NCBI GenBank assembly: GCA_016841045.1
Contig: JAENZX010000003.1
Span: forward strand, 1-64,000
Direction: 5' to 3'
Source of the DNA: Thermincola carboxydiphila
GTDB lineage: Bacteria > Bacillota > Thermincolia > Thermincolales > UBA2595
DNA length: 64,000 nt
Position 1 is the stretch's first letter; every line of letters starts with the position of its first letter. Positions 14,807 through 50,108 of this stretch are shown piece after piece. The notes below the pieces were generated by a model. That model had not been told where the DNA came from. It worked only from the letters and a program-made list of their open reading frames with translations, and searched no databases. The position numbers were made by a program, and so were the translations under genes.

Positions 14807-16138
14807 ATGGCTAAACCGGTTGTGGCAATAGTGGGTCGTCCTAATGTAGGTAAATCCACTTTATTTAACAGAATTGTAGGGGCAGGCAACATGGTGGCCA
14901 TTGTCGAAGATAAACCCGGGGTAACAAGAGACCGGCTCTACAGGGATGCCGAATGGCTGGGGAGAGAGTTTACTCTTGTAGATACAGGGGGAGTAGAGTT
15001 TAAAAACGTCACTGACCAGATTGCTCAGGGAATCCACCTCCAGGCTCAGCTTGCCATAGATGAGGCAGAAGTCATCCTATTTGTGGTAGATGCCAGGGAA
15101 GGACTCACTTCCATTGACACCGAGGTCGCCAAAGTCCTGCGTAAAAGTAAAACACCGGTTATTTTGGTTGCCAACAAGGTTGAGGATTTTAGCTCAAATT
15201 ACGATGTGTTTGATTTTTATAAACTTGGGTTGGATGAACCTATTATGATATCTGCCGCTCACGGCAAAAACATCGGTGATCTGTTAGACCGGGTTATAGC
15301 ACTTCTGCCTGCTGTTTCTGCAGATGATGAGTATGATGAAGATGTTATCAAAATTGCTGTAATAGGCCGACCGAATGTTGGAAAATCTTCAATTGTCAAC
15401 GCAGTTCTGGGGGAACAACGTGTTATTGTCAGTAATATTGCTGGCACTACAAGAGATGCAATAGATACATATTTTGAACAGGGTGAGGCCAAGTATCTGT
15501 TGATTGACACTGCCGGTATGAGAAAAAAAGGGAAAATCGATGAACCTACCGAAAGATATAGTGTTATAAGATCCTTAAGGGCTGTTGACAGGTGTGAAGT
15601 TGTCTTGATGATTATTGATGCTTCGGAAGGCGTAACTGAACAGGATAAGAAAATTGCCGGGTACGCCCATGAAGCTGGTAAGGGAATTGTTATTGTAGTT
15701 AATAAATGGGATCTTATTGAAAAAGATGATAAGACTATGCTTAGGTTTACTGAAGATATTAGGGATGAGTTAGGATTTATGCAGTATGCTCCTGCGATTT
15801 ACGTGTCTGCTTTGACTAAGCAGCGCATACCTAAGCTCCTTGAATTAGTTAACTTTGTAGCTCAGCAGCATGCTATGAGAATATCAACCAGTACTTTGAA
15901 CGAGCTCATACAGGAGTCGGTTAGTTTAAATCCTCCTCCCTCGGACAAGGGTAAAAGGCTTAAGATTTTGTATGCCACTCAGATTTCAGTGAAACCGCCA
16001 ACTTTTATTATATTTGTTAACGACCCGGAATTGATGCACTTTTCTTACCAGAGATACCTGGAAAACCAACTTAGGAGTAGTTTTGGTTTTGAAGGAACTC
16101 CTATCAGGATAATGATAAGAAAGCGTGACGAAGATTAA
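14807..16138 (+). CDS. der: Ribosome-associated GTPase Der (EngA)
   Basis: 443 residues with two GTPase domains: the first with [12 protein letters not shown] and VDTGGVE, the second with [12 protein letters not shown] and [13 protein letters not shown]-like domain follows. Der acts in assembly of the 50S ribosomal subunit. AAGGAGG lies before the ATG. The order der, plsY, gpsA is conserved in many Firmicutes, and the spacing here (14 and 9 bases) indicates co-transcription. Confidence 0.98.
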
Positions 16139-41002: not shown

Positions 41003-42373
41003 ATGGCAGGTATAATTGAAAAATTATTTGGCAGTGAAAAGATTCAAAGAAAACCCGAAGCCCCTGAAAGGAAAATGCATTGTCATCAGTGTGAATATAC
41101 TCCTTCGGGAGGGTGTACCCAGGCTGGTGTTTGTGGGAAAAGTCCTGATATTGCAAGTTTACAGGATACCATTATATTCGGACTGAAGGGTATAGCGGCA
41201 TATGCTGTACATGCCAGAGAACTTGGGTATGAAGATTCTGAAGTGAACGCAATAACTCACGAAGCATTATTCTTGACATTAACTAACTCAAATTTCAATT
41301 TACAGGAACATATAAATATGTGTTTAAAAGTGGGTTCCGGAACTATTAAAGTTTTAGACTTGCTCGATAAGGCCCATACTACAGAACTTGGGATTCCCAG
41401 CCCGGTTAAGGTTACCAATAATAAAGTGGAAGGACACTGTATTCTGGTTTCCGGGCATGATTTACTTGCCTTAAAAGAATTGCTTAAACAAACTGAAGGA
41501 AAGGGTATTAATATATATACCCACTCAGAAATGCTGCCCGCCCATGGTTATCCCGAACTTAAAAAGCACAAGCATCTTAAGGGCAATGTTGGCAAAGCAT
41601 GGTATGATCAAAGAGAAGTCTTTGAAAATTTCCCAGGTGCAATTTTGGCTACAACAAACTGCGTTATGCCAATAAAGAACAAAACCTATGGAGATAGAAT
41701 GTTCACTTATCTCGTTGCTGGTGTAGAAGGAGCTCATAAAATTGAGGACAGAGATTTCTCGCCTGTAATCGAAAAAGCCTTGTCATTGCCAACTGCTAAT
41801 ATTGATTCAAATGAAACGTTAATTACGGGATATCATCATCAGAGTGTTCTGCCGATGGCACCGCTAATTATAGATGCAGTAAAAGCAAGAAAAATCAGAC
41901 GATTTTTTGTTGTAGCCGGGTGTGATGCACCTACCAAGGGTAGAGACTACTTTAGGGAGTTTGCTACATCTATACCAAAGGATTGTATCCTAATAACTAC
42001 TTCATGCGGTAAATTCAGATTTAATGATGTGGATTATGGGAACATCGAAGGTACTGATATTCCAAGGTATATTGATTTAGGTCAGTGTAATAATTCCGGT
42101 TCAGCAACCAAAATCGCTTTAGCTTTGGCAGAAGCCTTTAACTGTAGTGTTAATGACCTGCCTTTAAGCATAGTGCTGTCATGGTTTGAGCAGAAAGCAG
42201 TAGCTATTTTACTGGGCCTTTTCAGCCTAAATGTACAAAATATAACTATAGGTCCCAAAGCTCCTGAATTTTTGTCTCCAGGGGTGGTTGAAGTTTTACA
42301 GAAGACATTTGGGTTGAAACTGATTAGTGGGGATGCAAAAGCTGATTTGGCCAGAATGCTTGGAGAAAAGTAA
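41003..42373 (+). CDS. hcp: Hybrid-cluster protein (hydroxylamine reductase), short form
   Basis: 456 residues, about 90 fewer than common Hcp (~550), so it resembles the truncated class III lacking part of the N-terminal helical domain. The N-terminal cluster motif CHQCEYTPSGGCTQAGVC is CX2CX7CX5C. Hybrid-cluster ligands appear in YTHSEMLPAHGYP, ATTNCVMP, AGCDAPTKGRDYF and TTSCGKFRFN. Hcp reduces NO or hydroxylamine and guards against nitrosative stress. AGGTGGTG lies before the ATG. It leads a three-gene cluster with a cupin and a thioredoxin reductase fusion. Confidence 0.94.
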   Translation: MAGIIEKLFGSEKIQRKPEAPERKMHCHQCEYTPSGGCTQAGVCGKSPDIASLQDTIIFGLKGIAAYAVHARELGYEDSEVNAITHEALFLTLTNSNFNLQEHINMCLKVGSGTIKVLDLLDKAHTTELGIPSPVKVTNNKVEGHCILVSGHDLLALKELLKQTEGKGINIYTHSEMLPAHGYPELKKHKHLKGNVGKAWYDQREVFENFPGAILATTNCVMPIKNKTYGDRMFTYLVAGVEGAHKIEDRDFSPVIEKALSLPTANIDSNETLITGYHHQSVLPMAPLIIDAVKARKIRRFFVVAGCDAPTKGRDYFREFATSIPKDCILITTSCGKFRFNDVDYGNIEGTDIPRYIDLGQCNNSGSATKIALALAEAFNCSVNDLPLSIVLSWFEQKAVAILLGLFSLNVQNITIGPKAPEFLSPGVVEVLQKTFGLKLISGDAKADLARMLGEK

Positions 42374-42394
42374 GCTTAATGGAGGATAACAATT

Positions 42395-42715
42395 ATGGAG
42401 TCACTTTTATCAAAAGCCATGAATCTTGGTAATATGGTAGAATACCAGGACGGGTCAATAATAAGCAGGGAAATATTGAGGAAGGAAACTGGCACTATAA
42501 CTCTTTTTGCCTTTGATGCCGGACAAGGTCTGAGTGAGCATACTGCACCCTTTGATGCAGTGGTGCAAATTTTGGATGGTGAGGCTGAGATTTATATTTC
42601 TGGTGAACCGATAACGGCTCTTTCAGGGCAAATGGTCATTATGCCGGCCAATAAACCACACTCCCTGAAAGCTAATAAAAAATTTAAAATGCTTCTTACT
42701 ATGATTAAGTCATAA
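42395..42715 (+). CDS. Single-domain cupin protein
   Basis: 106 residues. GQGLSEHTAPFDAVVQILDGEAEIYISGE and GQMVIMPANKPHSL are the two cupin motifs. H in SEHTAP and H in KPHSL could bind a metal, but the set is incomplete compared with classical cupins. It lies 21 bases after hcp with GGAGGATAA upstream. The Hcp-cupin pairing recurs in anaerobes. A sensor or redox-stress role is inferred only from context. Confidence 0.85.
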   Translation: MESLLSKAMNLGNMVEYQDGSIISREILRKETGTITLFAFDAGQGLSEHTAPFDAVVQILDGEAEIYISGEPITALSGQMVIMPANKPHSLKANKKFKMLLTMIKS

Positions 42716-42745
42716 TGCAAATATACATTTAGGAAAGGACGTAGT

Positions 42746-44026
42746 ATGAGTCGGATTTTAAATATTAATGCTGATGAGTTTCAGAGTGAGGTATTGAATA
42801 GTGAAAGACCGGTGATGGTAGATTTTTATTCGGATGAATGCCCTCCTTGTGAGGTGCTGGCACCTATTTTCGAAAGTATGGCAGAAAAATACGGGGAACG
42901 TGTTAAGTTTATCAGGATAATGAGACAAGCAAACAGGGATTTAGCTGAACAATTAGGAATTGGCAGCAGCCCTACGGTGATATTCTTTAAAAACGGTAAA
43001 GAGATAGGGACAAGATTAACAGGTTTTTTAAGTAAGCCTCAGGTCAGAAAAGCAATTGATGAAATACTTGGTGATGTTATCCCGCAGATAGAAACAGCAC
43101 GAGAAGAATATGATGTTATTATCTTAGGCGCCGGGGCAGCCGGTCTTTCGGCGTCTATTTACACTGCCAGGGCAAGATTAAACACGATTGTGATTGATGA
43201 AAATGTACCTGGTGGACAAGCGGCATCCACTTACCATGTCGCAAATTATCCAGGGACCCCTGGAGTAGTCAGGGGTCAAGAGATAATCGATAATATGAAA
43301 AAACAGGCTGATAGTTTTGGAGCGAAGATAGAATATATGAAAGAAATATTTGAAGTTGATTTATCCAATAAGATAAAAAAGGTTCAAACTGAGGATAAAG
43401 ATTACAATGCCAGAACACTTATAATTGCAACCGGAGCAAAACCTAGGGCGCTGCCCGCAGAAGGTGCGGATGAATTTAAAGGAAGAGGAGTACACTACTG
43501 TGCTACCTGTGATGGTGCAATGTATCAGGATAGGAAGGTAGTAGTAGTTGGTGGTGGTAATTCTGCCGTAGAAGAAGCTATTTTTTTAACTAAATTTGCT
43601 TCAGAAGTGACCATTATACACCAATTTGACCATTTTCAAGCGTCGCAAATAGCTCAGGAAGAGGCACTTAAGAACAGCAAAATAAAGGTTATCTGGGATT
43701 CTGAAGTTAGGAAAGTTAACGGGGAAGGTCATTCACTCAGAAGTATTATGATAGAAAATTTGAAGACTAAGGAAACTTCAGAAATTAAAACAGACGGGGT
43801 ATTTGTGTATATAGGTACGGAACCGGCTTCCCGTTTGTTTAAAGGACAGGTTAATCTAGATGAGTCAGGTTATATCATCTCCGGGGAAAGTACCAAAACT
43901 AATATTGAAGGAGTTTTTGTCGCAGGTGATATCAGGACAAAACCTATCAGACAAGTTGTAACAGCAGCGGCTGATGGTGCTATTGCGGGGATTATGGCAG
44001 AGCGATATTTGGTAGAGTCATGGTAG
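42746..44026 (+). CDS. Thioredoxin-thioredoxin reductase fusion
   Basis: 426 residues. Residues 1-110 are a thioredoxin domain with active site DECPPCE (CPPC instead of CGPC). From about 125 a thioredoxin reductase follows: FAD loop VIILGAGAAGLSASIYTARA, redox site HYCATCDGA, NADPH loop VVVGGGNSAVEEA and C-terminal GVFVAGDIRTKPIRQVVTAA. The order is thioredoxin first, the reverse of the mycobacterial TrxB-TrxA fusion. It would pass NADPH electrons to its own thioredoxin, perhaps to reduce Hcp or damaged thiols (inference). Confidence 0.92.
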   Translation: MSRILNINADEFQSEVLNSERPVMVDFYSDECPPCEVLAPIFESMAEKYGERVKFIRIMRQANRDLAEQLGIGSSPTVIFFKNGKEIGTRLTGFLSKPQVRKAIDEILGDVIPQIETAREEYDVIILGAGAAGLSASIYTARARLNTIVIDENVPGGQAASTYHVANYPGTPGVVRGQEIIDNMKKQADSFGAKIEYMKEIFEVDLSNKIKKVQTEDKDYNARTLIIATGAKPRALPAEGADEFKGRGVHYCATCDGAMYQDRKVVVVGGGNSAVEEAIFLTKFASEVTIIHQFDHFQASQIAQEEALKNSKIKVIWDSEVRKVNGEGHSLRSIMIENLKTKETSEIKTDGVFVYIGTEPASRLFKGQVNLDESGYIISGESTKTNIEGVFVAGDIRTKPIRQVVTAAADGAIAGIMAERYLVESW

Positions 44027-44209
44027 ATTATGTAGAATTTTAAGAATTACTTAATAAATTTTGAGTATCTAAAGTGGTAAAATTATATATATATAAACAT
44101 AAATTGGAAGAGAGTGGTAACAACTGGGGCTAAAAAACAACCAATCAGGGGCCTTTTGTTTCCATTTAAGTTATTTGTTTGGAATTAACGCGGCTAATAA
44201 CATATAATA

Positions 44210-44266
44210 AAACTCATAAAAAAACTCATATAAACAAATAAAAGTAAATAAAAACAAATAAAAAGG
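44210..44266 (+). repeat. A-rich short repeats before the HD-GYP leader
   Basis: AAAACTCATA occurs twice and AAACAAATAAAA-like units three times. The stretch is almost free of C and G. It may be an UP-element-like promoter region or spacer. Bases 44027-44209 hold no gene that I can support. Confidence 0.4.
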
Positions 44267-44278
44267 TAGAAGTCCTGT

Positions 44279-44380
44279 GGCAAGCATTGGGGAATGAAAG
44301 CCTTAATGAGGCCTGCTAATTCACTGTAACCAATCTTCAGATAAGGAAAAGTTACAGTAAAAGATTGGCGTGCCTTTTTT
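44279..44380 (+). promoter_or_regulatory. Structured 5' leader of the HD-GYP gene with two exclusive helices
   Basis: GGCAAGC (44279-44285) can pair with GCGTGCC (44368-44374), directly before six T. Inside, ACTGTAAC (44323-44330) pairs with GTTACAGT (44351-44358), and CAATCTT (44331-44337) pairs with AAGATTG (44361-44367). The last two overlap in order A-B-A'-B'. They cannot both form as simple hairpins, which is how attenuators and riboswitches behave. GGAATGAAAGCCT (44291-44303) recurs as GGAATCAAAGCCT in the leader at 47161. No known riboswitch class matches by eye. Confidence 0.5.
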
Positions 44381-44410
44381 AGTTGTTTTCATTAATGGGG
44401 GGCTGAAATC

Positions 44411-46072
44411 TTGGGAGATAATTTAGATTTTGAAGTATTACGTGACTTCATTAAATTCCTCTATAGAAATCAGGACAGAGAAATTATACTATTAGAACTT
44501 TTGAACATATTTGACAAAAAATTTGGTTGTTCCGCCGCGGGCGCCTATTTGTATGAAAATGGCTCATTTTTATTAAAAGCGAAAATTCGCGGGCATAATC
44601 CTTCTGATATTAAAATATTTCTTAATGATGTTTTGGATTCTCATATTGCTATGAAATATAAGGATGAGTATTGTAGACCGATTTTGATGGAAAATAACTC
44701 CTACTTTATCTCTTTAGGATGTAGTGAAAAAGTTTATGGAGTTATAATTTATAATAGTGTTGATAATTTATCACATACTGCAGACCTGATTAGTCTTCTT
44801 GCAATTCAGACTGTGATTGCATTAAAGGAAAACGAGCATTATAAACAAACAAAGGTAATTGAACAATTGGTGGAAGATTTTGCTTCAAGCCTGGACGTGA
44901 TTATTTACTTTCCCCGGTTCATACAACATCTAAAACAGATTATTAATTTTGAGGGATTAAATATAACTATTCCAGACCCTTTATGCCGAGACAAACTGCT
45001 GGTTTATGGAAACAATGTTAATGACCCGCTAGAAACTACTTCAAGTTCTTATCAAGGAAATGCTCCGGCTTGGGTTATAAGTACTGGGAAACCTATGTTA
45101 GAAGAAGATGTAAAAACTACTAAGATGTTTCTGGGAAATGTGTTTTCACCTGAATCTGGAATACGTTGTATCCTTTGTGTTCCTCTAATAAGTAAAGGTA
45201 AAGTTATTGGTTCGTTAAACATTGGCAGCAGGATTCCTGATTATTATAAGGAAAGGCATATCAATCTGCTAACAGAAGTAGCTGCAAAGATAGGGCCCAA
45301 TGTGGAAAACGCTTTAATTTATCAGAGTATGAATAACAACTTGGAACAGGCTTTATATCAACTGGATCAAAATTTCTATGCAACATTAAATGCTTTTACA
45401 TATTTGCTGGACCGTCGTGATAATGTAACGAAAGGCCATTCTCTCAGGGTAATAAAGTATTCGGTTACTATTGCCGAGCGGATGGGAATAGAAGGAGCCG
45501 AACTTGAACAACTGCGTTTGGGTGCTCTTCTTCATGATATCGGAAAGATTGGGATTCCAGACTCGATACTTTTTAAGACTAATAAATTAACTGATGAAGA
45601 ATGGAAGGTAATGAAGACACACCCTGCGTTAGGGGCAGAGATGCTTTCCAAAATAAAGTTTTTATCCTCGGCTGTTCCAGTAGTATTGCATCATCATGAA
45701 CGGTTTGATGGCACCGGATATCCTCATCAACTAACCGGTGAAGAAATACCGCTTGCAGCAAGGATTTTCTCTATTGCCGATGCATTTGATGCTATTACCA
45801 GTAAGCGTCCATACAAAGATATCCAGTCATTAGACAACGCACTTTCTGAACTAAAGAAATGTACAGGAACTCAATTCTGTCCCACATGTATAGATGCATT
45901 TTTAAGTATCACTAAAAGTGACTTGGTTAAGCTTTATAAAGAATGTAAAAATAAGCTTACCTTTAAAAATCCCTTTCTCATCGGCCAGGAATTTGAAAAA
46001 CAGAAGAATTTAGATACCAAGCTACTTGGTGTTCCAACTGCAAATTCTTTACCGGTTTTGTTAAGCAGCTAG
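44411..46072 (+). CDS. GAF-HD-GYP protein (c-di-GMP phosphodiesterase candidate)
   Basis: 553 residues; TTG start with GGGGGG 8 bases upstream. The N-terminal part holds one or two GAF-like domains (about 20-150 and 155-300, GIRCILCVPLISKGKVIGSLNI). The HD-GYP domain has H343, HDIGK near 375, HHHERFDGTGYP near 427 and IADAFDAITSKRPYK. The HD and GYP residues are all present, so c-di-GMP hydrolysis is likely. The structured leader at 44279-44380 lies just upstream. Confidence 0.92.
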   Translation: MGDNLDFEVLRDFIKFLYRNQDREIILLELLNIFDKKFGCSAAGAYLYENGSFLLKAKIRGHNPSDIKIFLNDVLDSHIAMKYKDEYCRPILMENNSYFISLGCSEKVYGVIIYNSVDNLSHTADLISLLAIQTVIALKENEHYKQTKVIEQLVEDFASSLDVIIYFPRFIQHLKQIINFEGLNITIPDPLCRDKLLVYGNNVNDPLETTSSSYQGNAPAWVISTGKPMLEEDVKTTKMFLGNVFSPESGIRCILCVPLISKGKVIGSLNIGSRIPDYYKERHINLLTEVAAKIGPNVENALIYQSMNNNLEQALYQLDQNFYATLNAFTYLLDRRDNVTKGHSLRVIKYSVTIAERMGIEGAELEQLRLGALLHDIGKIGIPDSILFKTNKLTDEEWKVMKTHPALGAEMLSKIKFLSSAVPVVLHHHERFDGTGYPHQLTGEEIPLAARIFSIADAFDAITSKRPYKDIQSLDNALSELKKCTGTQFCPTCIDAFLSITKSDLVKLYKECKNKLTFKNPFLIGQEFEKQKNLDTKLLGVPTANSLPVLLSS

Positions 46073-46129
46073 TTCTTAAACTAGTTTGTTGATTCAGTAT
46101 ACAATCAAAGTTGCAATTCCAACTGAACG

Positions 46130-46645
46130 GTGGATGGTAATGTGAATAGTCTTAATAAAAATCAGCTTCTAAGTCACAAATTGAAAATATATGAGGCGTA
46201 TACATTGACCCGGTTTTTAAACAAAATGTTCGAAGACCAAGTCGGAGCATTCGCTAAAAGTATTGATTTAACTATTCCACAGGCCCATTTAATGACAATG
46301 ATATATTTTCATGAAGGGCTATTGGTATCAGAAATAGCTAGAATCGGAGCTTGGCATATTTCAACAGTTATGAGCATCTTGAGCCGTTTAGCCAAAAAAG
46401 GACTAATAAAGTATGAGCCTGTGGAAAAAGGAAAAGGTTCCTATGTTTTTTTGACAAACACAGGAAAACGAATCATTGAAGATAGGTGGGATATAGAAAG
46501 GAAGTTTATGAATATTTTACCTCCCCAAAAACTTGTTAACAATCTGAAGCAGATCTATGCTGTTTTAGAGAGATATTATGACCGATCACTAATGGACCAA
46601 ATAAAAGAGCATATCTTTTGTGCTAATAGGTTCATAAAGTATTAA
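46130..46645 (+). CDS. MarR-family regulator, ScoC/Hpr-like
   Basis: 171 residues. IYEAYTLTRFLNKMFEDQ is followed by a winged helix (LLVSEIARIGAWHISTVMSILSRLAKKGLI), whose HISTV motif resembles Bacillus ScoC (Hpr), a repressor of protease and sporulation genes. YVFLTNTGKRI forms the wing. GTG 46130 or GTG 46142 may be the start; the GGTGGATGG run serves either. It is preceded by the HD-GYP gene at 57 bases. Confidence 0.82.
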   Translation: MDGNVNSLNKNQLLSHKLKIYEAYTLTRFLNKMFEDQVGAFAKSIDLTIPQAHLMTMIYFHEGLLVSEIARIGAWHISTVMSILSRLAKKGLIKYEPVEKGKGSYVFLTNTGKRIIEDRWDIERKFMNILPPQKLVNNLKQIYAVLERYYDRSLMDQIKEHIFCANRFIKY

Positions 46646-46725
46646 ATAATATTTAGCCTTTGACTATTAACAAGAACTTTCTAATGTTTGCAGCAATTAC
46701 ATAATTCAGGAGGTAGAGATAAAAG

Positions 46726-47094
46726 ATGTCAATTAAGTTATGTAAAGACTTTAGTTTACCTGAATTAAACAAAGGAGTTATTTTGGAAACTCTTCCTGGA
46801 GTTATTGCCGGCTTTATGAAAAAGAAATACGGCAGAGGTCCGGAAAACCAAAAAATATATTTCAATGATAATGATGTAATTGTGTATATCTATGGGTTTT
46901 TAAATAAGCAGGTATTTTGGGATGATACAGATGTTTCAGAAACTGTACGGAAATATTACTATAGACTTATGAAAAAAGATATTGATGGCATAAGACAGCT
47001 TTTCATTAAAACATATAATATTCATATCCAAAGGGTGTTTTGTGATTTTGACATAGCAGCTAATGAAGGGGTTTTTATCTTTAAATCCTCGTAA
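46726..47094 (+). CDS. DUF2294 family protein
   Basis: 122 residues. KKYGRGPENQKIYFNDNDVIVYIYGFLN and the C-terminal VFCDFDIAANEGVFIF fit the DUF2294 pattern, a small cytoplasmic alpha/beta family without known function. CAGGAGGTAG precedes the ATG. It lies between the ScoC-like regulator and the chemoreceptor. Confidence 0.7.
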   Translation: MSIKLCKDFSLPELNKGVILETLPGVIAGFMKKKYGRGPENQKIYFNDNDVIVYIYGFLNKQVFWDDTDVSETVRKYYYRLMKKDIDGIRQLFIKTYNIHIQRVFCDFDIAANEGVFIFKSS

Positions 47095-47152
47095 ACTTAC
47101 CTTAAAACATTTACCTCCATACAAAAATTGTTCAACCTTTAACTTCTAAAAT

Positions 47153-47264
47153 TTAATAGTAGGTGCTATTAAGGAATCAAAGCCTAAGATAGACTTACTT
47201 ATCAGGTAGTGCTTGGGTCACCAGAATGTGATTAGGCATGGCTGTGTTAAGTATGTCTTTTTTT
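47153..47264 (+). promoter_or_regulatory. Structured 5' leader of the chemoreceptor gene, related to 44279
   Basis: GCCTAA (47182-47187) pairs with TTAGGC (47232-47237), while AGACTTACTT (47191-47200) pairs with AAGTATGTCT (47249-47258) with one mismatch, followed by a T-run. The order is again A-B-A'-B', the same logic as at 44279-44380. The shared motif GGAATCAAAGCCT is at 47173-47185. AGGTAGTGCTTGGGTCACC at 47204-47222 faintly recalls the 3' part of c-di-GMP-I riboswitches. A clear GNRA-loop partner stem is missing. Confidence 0.45.
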
Positions 47265-47325
47265 ATTATATTTGGGAGGTGGTATACCAAGAAATAATAA
47301 AACATTAAATAGGGGAGAGGATTAG

Positions 47326-49515
47326 ATGATGAAGAAATTAAGACTAAACTTATTTGCCAAGATATTTTTGAGTTTTTTCGTGCTGACCATTGTAGTTATA
47401 ACTGGGGTTTCGGGAACTTCCTACTTTCAATCGTCTTCTATTGTCACAACGGAAGCAGAACAAAAACTTAATATGGTAGTTAACGAAAAAGTCAACACGA
47501 TGGATGTCATTGTAAACAATAGTAAGGCAACGGGGTATATGATTGCCAGTCTGCCACAAATTCGTCAGGAGATTCAAGTGGCAAATGCAGGCCAGAATAC
47601 AGGTATTAATTGGGAAATTTCCAGTTTTCTAAAAGATGAATTTGAACGGAAAAAAGGCTTATATGAAAATGTTTTTATCGCCGGTAGAGGCGGCAAAATA
47701 CTTCAGGATAGTCTTGGAGGAGGTTCCATTGGCACTGATTTACGTGAAATGGAGTGGTATCAAGATTCAATAAAAGGTCAACAGGTCTTTGGTAAAGTAA
47801 TGACTTCGCCTATCACCGGTAGACCGGTAGTGGTTGTAAGTACTCCAATCAAAAATGGTCAAGAAACCATGGGAGTCGCTGCTATTGCTTTGGAATTCAA
47901 TGTATTGACCAAGCCTATTACTGACTCACTCATAGGCAAAACAGGGTTCACCTTTGTTACCAATCAGGATGGTCTGGTGCTTGCCCATCCCGATAAGAGT
48001 AAAGTCATGACATTAGACCTATCCAAAGAGAAGGGTACGTCAGGAATAATTAACAGGATACATGATGAAAAATCGGGACTAGTTGATTACACCTTAAACG
48101 GTGAAGAAAAGATGATGTCTTTTTATCAGGTGCCTGACAGTGAATTGGTAGTTTGTTCTGTTATAGACAGAAAAGAAGTTCTAAGTGAGGTCAAGAAAGT
48201 TGTCATTCAACAGATAGCAGTCGGAGTCTTAGCATTGATAGTAACATTTGTCGGAGCTCTACTTTTCGCTAGAAGTCTGACTAACCCAATTCTAAAGATA
48301 GTTGCTGCCATGGGATTGGCTGCAGAAGGAGATCTCACCGGTAGACTGGAGATAAATCGCGCAGATGAACTGGGAATTTTGGCCAATGCTTATCAAAAGA
48401 TGATGGAAAATCTACGTCACATGATTCACCAAATAACCGCAGCAAGTCAATCTGTTGCATCAACCAGTGAAGAGCTGTCCTCCAACACTGAAGAGGCCAC
48501 TCATGCAATTCAGCAAGTAGCCCAAACTATTGAGCAGGTTGCTATGGGTTCAACCCATCAGGCTCAAAGCGTGACAGACATTCTTCACGTAATGGATCAA
48601 GTGAGTCAGTCAATACAGCAGGTTGCTGTGGGAGCAAGTGAACAGAGTCAAAATGTTGTTACAACAACAAATATGGTAAATAACATGGTACAAATGATAG
48701 AAAACATGTCTGAAGGTATGAAGAATATAAAACAGGTGTCTGAGCAAAACGGTGTTGTTGCTGGAAATGGCGGTAAATCTGTAGAAAAAACAGTTGACGG
48801 TATGATAAAAGTTAAAGAAGCTGTTTTTGATACAGCTAACAAAATTCATGAATTAGGTGATCAGTCACAGAAAATCGGGGAAATTATTCAGGTTATCGAT
48901 GAAATAGCTGAGCAAACTAACTTACTGGCTTTGAATGCCGCAATTGAGGCAGCAAGGGCCGGTGAACATGGCAAAGGTTTTGCTGTAGTGGCTGACGAGG
49001 TTAGAAAGCTTGCCGAGAGATCAGGTAAGGCCACGAAGGAAATTGCCCAGCTTATTACCGATATTCAAAGAGGTACTAAAATTGCTGTGGAGTCCATGCA
49101 AATCGGTACTACCGAAGTAGAGCAGGGTGTTATTTTGGCTCAGGAAGCAGGCCAATCTCTTAAGGAGATAGTAGATGGGGTCAAGGATGCAGGTGATAAT
49201 GTACATCAAATTATGTTGATAATCAATGATGTGTTGTCTGGAAGCCAGGAAGTAGCTAAAGCCATAAATAATGTTGCGGCTATTACCGAAGAAAACACTG
49301 CTGCAACACAACAAATGTCAGCTGCAACCCAGCAAATTAACTCTTCAATGCAAAACGTAGCTTCTGTATCTGAAGAGAATGCATCATCGGCTGAAGAAGC
49401 ATCTGCTTCCACAGAAGAAATAACTGCTTCGGTCGAGGGCATTACAGAATCCTCAAGTCAATTGGCGAAAATGGCGCATGACCTGCAGAACATGGTGTCA
49501 GGATTCCGGGTATAG
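47326..49515 (+). CDS. Methyl-accepting chemotaxis protein with dCache sensor
   Basis: 729 residues. Membrane segments at about 10-32 and 285-310 enclose a large double-Cache sensor ([25 protein letters not shown]). A HAMP domain follows, then a long coiled signalling region with the hairpin tip [28 protein letters not shown]. It senses an external ligand and controls CheA through CheW. AGGGGAGAGG precedes two consecutive ATGs. cheW follows directly, indicating a dedicated receptor-coupling pair. Confidence 0.96.
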
Positions 49516-49526
49516 GGGGGTTGATG

Positions 49527-49982
49527 ATGTCTGATGTTATTAACGATAATCAGTATGTAATATTTGAATTGGGAGAAGAAACCTTTGGCGTTGAAATAAA
49601 CAAAATAAAGGAAATTATCGTTTATCAACAAACTACACAAATCCCAGGAACCGGAGATCTGATTGATGGAATAATAAATTTAAGGGGTCATGTAATTCCT
49701 ATCTATAACATTAGGCGTAAATTCGGGTTTTCTGATATTGATGCTACAAGAAGCAGCCGAATTGTTGTAGTAGAGGCTAATGATAATACTGTGGGGATTG
49801 TAGTTGACGGTGTGACTCAAGTTCAGATGATTGCCGGGGATATTATTGAAAAGCCTTCCTCAATGATTACCTCAGGGGGACATTCAGAATATATTTCGGG
49901 TGTTGCCAAGATTGAAGAAAAACTGGTAATTATTTTAGATTTGGAAAAGGTTATTAAAACTCGCATGGAAGAAGCGGTTTAG
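49527..49982 (+). CDS. cheW: Chemotaxis coupling protein CheW
   Basis: 151 residues from the ATG at 49527, six bases after a GGGGGG run; the TTG at 49521 is too close to it. YVIFELGEETFGVEINKIKEII is the start of a CheW domain and IINLRGHVIPIYNIRRKFG its core. CheW links receptors to the CheA kinase. No cheA is present in the window, so the rest of the pathway is elsewhere. Confidence 0.95.
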   Translation: MSDVINDNQYVIFELGEETFGVEINKIKEIIVYQQTTQIPGTGDLIDGIINLRGHVIPIYNIRRKFGFSDIDATRSSRIVVVEANDNTVGIVVDGVTQVQMIAGDIIEKPSSMITSGGHSEYISGVAKIEEKLVIILDLEKVIKTRMEEAV

Positions 49983-50051
49983 GAAGAATCGTTTAAGAAC
50001 TGTATGATCAGTAAGTGGAATTATTTTTCTAATTTTATAGTATAAAAATAA

Positions 50052-50108
50052 AAGTTCTGTCAATTCCTCCCTTCATCTAAGTGGATTAATTGACAGAACT
50101 TGTTTTTT
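50052..50108. terminator. Bidirectional terminator between cheW and the second chemoreceptor gene
   Basis: A 14-bp perfect stem (50052-50065 with 50088-50101) with a 22-base loop, followed by GTTTTTTG. It lies between converging genes. Confidence 0.85.

Follow-up and report, generated by a model that had tools for sequence, protein, structure and literature searches.

The leader of a gene encoding a protein with GAF and HD-GYP domains raises the question of whether its RNA is a regulatory switch or an element of a more ordinary kind. The locus lies in a 64,000-nucleotide stretch of DNA, which is referred to as the window. The downstream protein matches the Pfam families HD_5 (1.1e-38) and GAF_2 (8e-11), and the motifs HDxGK and HHExxDGxGYP can be read in its translation. 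These matches and motifs bear out the preliminary description, which took the controlled gene to encode a likely c-di-GMP phosphodiesterase, and the product is probably a cyclic-di-GMP-degrading enzyme. The ribosome-binding site of the gene is GGGGGG (44397-44402), 8 nt upstream of the TTG at 44411. The gene upstream of the leader encodes a thioredoxin/thioredoxin-reductase fusion and ends at 44026, and the + strand carries every gene from 41003 to 49982. The features of the leader and of the HD-GYP gene are the following:

44179-44208, + strand: candidate sigma-70-type promoter, TTGGAA-18-TATAAT (10 of 12), the sole candidate near the leader
44279-44319, + strand: 5' part of the leader, with weak hairpins and possible partial pairing with the terminator 5' arm
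44294-44329, + strand: short ORF (MKALMRPANSL), with ATG at 44294 and the stop codon TAA at 44327-44329 inside helix A
44308-44380, + strand: intrinsic-terminator-like hairpin running into T6 (stem 44308-44376, ~20 pairs with small interruptions; T6 44375-44380)
44323-44330, + strand: 5' strand of helix A, ACTGTAAC, which forms the upper terminator stem (from sequence; pair probability >0.999)
44330-44337, + strand: strand B, CCAATCTT, largely inside the loop of helix A and complementary to 44361-44368
44351-44358, + strand: 3' strand of helix A (A'), GTTACAGT, the perfect partner of 44323-44330 (from sequence and folding)
44361-44368, + strand: strand B', AAGATTGG, which overlaps the lower 3' arm of the terminator (from sequence and folding)
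44411-46072, + strand: ORF of the GAF and HD-GYP protein (553 aa), with a TTG start

The hairpin and its T-run are established by sequence and folding. The hairpin piece alone has a minimum free energy of -24.7 kcal/mol, compared with a mean of -12.5 for shuffled sequences (z -4.0), and none of 200 shuffles was equally stable. The larger region from 44270 to 44382 has a minimum energy of -32.8 kcal/mol (z -2.6), and its preferred fold is the same long hairpin, not the fold given in the preliminary description. The stem is composed of a base (GAGGC/GCCTT), a middle (TGCTAATT/GATTGGCG) and a top (A/A'). The pairing of AGGC with GCCT and of TGCTAATT with GATTGGCG beneath helix A, which is dominant and yields one continuous hairpin, had been overlooked. 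Both marks of an intrinsic terminator are present, namely a hairpin that is stabler than its shuffles and a U-tract directly 3' of it. Among the other intergenic elements of the window that combine a hairpin with a T-run, it ranks with the most stable, strong yet not exceptional. It resembles known intrinsic (Rho-independent) terminators and leader attenuators in having a stable hairpin and an immediate T6 between an upstream gene and a start codon, whereas it differs from them in its long, interrupted stem of ~20 pairs, which is less G+C-rich than in textbook cases, and in the perfect alternative 8-bp helix that overlaps the stem. In E. coli, mapped RNA 3' ends are abundant in 5' UTRs (PMC7815308).

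Two other elements of the window were recorded. A further strong hairpin with a T-run (47190-47262, -24.8 kcal/mol) lies between an MpsC-like gene and a chemoreceptor gene at 47326, and a terminator-like bidirectional hairpin with T-runs on both strands (50048-50103) lies between convergent genes.

The inverted repeats A/A' and B/B' are the feature on which the idea of a switch had been founded. The 8-bp helix A reported earlier (44323-44330 with 44351-44358) pairs perfectly, and the A-B-A'-B' order of the overlapping helices is correct by coordinates; helix B, reported as 7 bp, also pairs perfectly but extends to 8 bp once 44330 is included. Such an overlap was defined as a helix of at least 8 bp and another of at least 7 bp that overlap within 50 nt. 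Of 3000 dinucleotide shuffles made from the 191-nt region 44230-44420, 3 contained one. The same arrangement was found at two + strand places in the window, at 16062 and in this leader. The pattern is rare locally, but a 64-kb window can hold one or two, and it is uncommon rather than unique.

Helices A and B are mutually exclusive, as had been suggested, but they do not constitute a balanced two-state switch. Forcing helix B/B' carries a penalty of about 12 kcal/mol, which corresponds to an equilibrium probability of about 2e-8, and when successively longer prefixes are folded, A/A' is finished at 44360, ahead of the synthesis of B'. The enclosing helix that had been described as ending at six T (GGCA/TGCC, 44279-44282 with 44371-44374) can form, but at a cost of 4.5 kcal/mol and with a probability of 0.0009; the position of the T6 (44375-44380) was confirmed. 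Helix A was also considered as a repeated DNA operator, and the one other occurrence in the genome, which has a longer spacer, was taken as chance.

The 5' part of the leader was searched for a sensor. Its structure was not unusual compared with shuffles (z -0.44 for 44270-44320, -0.57 for 44215-44308 and +0.59 for 44270-44345). Its antiterminator potential was also at shuffle level, pairing with the terminator 5' arm amounting to 0.55 compared with a mean of 0.52 for shuffled upstream sequence. No structured upstream domain that competes with the terminator, as expected of a new riboswitch, was found in this part. The significance of the folding therefore sits in the terminator hairpin, and an aptamer is unmarked. 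None of these results supports the switch-like RNA first proposed, and the hairpin has the form of an ordinary terminator.

No RNA family in Rfam matched the window at the gathering score, and at loose thresholds (E up to 10) only unrelated matches at chance level were obtained, in agreement with the earlier statement that no known riboswitch family could be assigned. Genes for tRNA or tmRNA were likewise absent from the window. In the host genome, 18 c-di-GMP-I-GGC riboswitches score above the cut-off and a few further matches are weaker; the family (RF03167) matches at 22 places in this genome, and the leader is not among them. A host-specific c-di-GMP-I model was prepared from the 18 host copies and a copy from the sister genus and was used with the search filters off. 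This model is mostly a sequence model because its RNAalifold structure holds only 8 base pairs. As a c-di-GMP-I (GEMM) element, the leader reached 5.0 bits at best; the opposite strand and coding sequence nearby scored about as well, and the ACGCAAAGC core, which is kept in nearly all aligned copies, is missing from the leader. At these scores, the leader is therefore no recognisable c-di-GMP-I riboswitch.

Relatives of the leader were sought with the leader as a DNA query (BLAST against its own genome, the family, the class and plasmids), which returned only the leader itself and, within its genome, short matches attributed to chance. A single-sequence covariance model, which has limited reach, also found only the leader itself in 10 class genomes and 398 genomes drawn from the phylum. 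Protein searches of the class and phylum identified only three full-length HD-GYP orthologues, and their upstream regions were too few and too different for an alignment of leaders. The orthologue in the sister-genus genome G008 (51% identity, E 2.8e-178) is preceded by a c-di-GMP-I-GGC riboswitch scoring 60.3 bits (L022 3224-3317, - strand). For the other two orthologues (L023 and L024), no riboswitch of this family reached the gathering score, and terminator-like hairpins were seen by eye soon after the upstream stop codon, ahead of the HD-GYP gene. The present leader is linked to RF03167 by the riboswitch before the orthologous gene and by the 18 host copies, whereas it matches neither the family nor the host model and lacks the conserved core. 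In L022, a further hairpin-like stretch and a T-run also precede the gene.

The element is best explained, with moderate confidence, as an intrinsic terminator in the 5' leader of the GAF/HD-GYP gene, acting either constitutively or as a conditional attenuator, and the hairpin probably dampens this gene. The z score of -4.0 with an immediate T6, the strength of the hairpin within the window and its position ~30 nt ahead of a start codon that has a good ribosome-binding site support this explanation, and the presence of a cis-regulatory RNA in the leader of the sister-genus orthologue was also counted in its favour. No promoter-like site was found between the hairpin and the HD-GYP gene, so transcripts of the gene probably must pass the hairpin. 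The candidate promoter at 44179-44208 stands against the explanation in that the number of sites of its grade is within chance, as does the result that searches of the 10 class and 398 phylum genomes revealed no conserved counterpart of the hairpin. In the proposed mechanism, RNA polymerase from an upstream promoter (perhaps 44179-44208) would read the leader, the hairpin (44308-44376) would fold once its 3' arm emerges, and at the T6, ~30 nt short of the start codon, a fraction of the transcripts would be released. Termination in the cell, and any regulation of its rate, are inferred. Pairing of B with B' would break the terminator, and a bound factor could in principle exploit it for antitermination; no independent sign of such use of B/B' was found.

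The main rival to a leader terminator, possible but rather unlikely, is that the hairpin is the late 3' terminator of the thioredoxin/thioredoxin-reductase unit, which would have a long 3' UTR, with the HD-GYP gene being read via leakage or from an unrecognised promoter. No strong hairpin with a T-run was found from 44027 to 44300; the upstream gene is without an evident strong terminator of its own, and the hairpin could serve it. The neighbouring genes are all on the same strand, and in L023 and L024 the sequence reads as terminator-like hairpins between the upstream and HD-GYP genes. However, the hairpins of these two orthologues sit shortly past the upstream stop codon, unlike the present one, which lies 282 nt past the stop codon; its T-run ends ~30 nt ahead of the following start codon, and a promoter would not fit into that gap.

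The remaining explanations are less likely. A new ligand-binding riboswitch, with an aptamer at about 44262-44320, the terminator as expression platform and B/B' contributing to the alternative state, is improbable: perfect overlapping 8-bp helices in 3 of 3000 shuffles, a gene that encodes a signalling enzyme and the riboswitch before an orthologue speak for it, but the 5' part folds (z -0.44) and pairs with the terminator arm as shuffles do, B/B' costs about 12 kcal/mol, and neither an Rfam match nor a homologue in the class genomes and 398 phylum genomes was found. It is also quite improbable that a lineage-specific, undescribed RNA switch stands where the sister genus has c-di-GMP-I, with B/B' as the antiterminator for some ligand or protein. 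Ribosome-mediated attenuation, in which a ribosome on the short upstream ORF would hold the terminator 5' arm open, is very unlikely. This ORF covers most of the 5' arm and, as in leader-peptide attenuators, accompanies mutually exclusive helices, whereas it differs from them in lacking a proper ribosome-binding site, the GGGG only 1 nt ahead of the ATG being too close, and a series of codons for a single sensed amino acid, MKALMRPANSL not being rich in any; short ORFs of this size are also frequent by chance. Descent from the c-di-GMP-I (GEMM) riboswitch before the sister-genus orthologue, followed by decay, is the most doubtful explanation. The motif GGCAAGC...AAAGCC in the leader faintly resembles GGCAAACC...AAAGCC, and 18 copies of this riboswitch pass the cut-off in the host, besides the one before the orthologue; yet the host-derived model gives no more than 5.0 bits, similar to the opposite strand, the core GGCAAA...ACGCAAAGC is not present, and the upstream gene differs.

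As a plain terminator or attenuator, the element has little import beyond annotation, and the comparison of leaders is mildly useful. Orthologous HD-GYP genes of one bacterial family differ in their leaders, which contain either a c-di-GMP-I riboswitch or a bare terminator hairpin, so changes at the RNA level may add or remove feedback by c-di-GMP on the phosphodiesterase that degrades it. Elsewhere in the host genome, on contig C48 (123282-124707; L033, L036 and L043), two c-di-GMP-I-GGC riboswitches stand in tandem ~70 bp apart, with a third ~1.1 kb further on.
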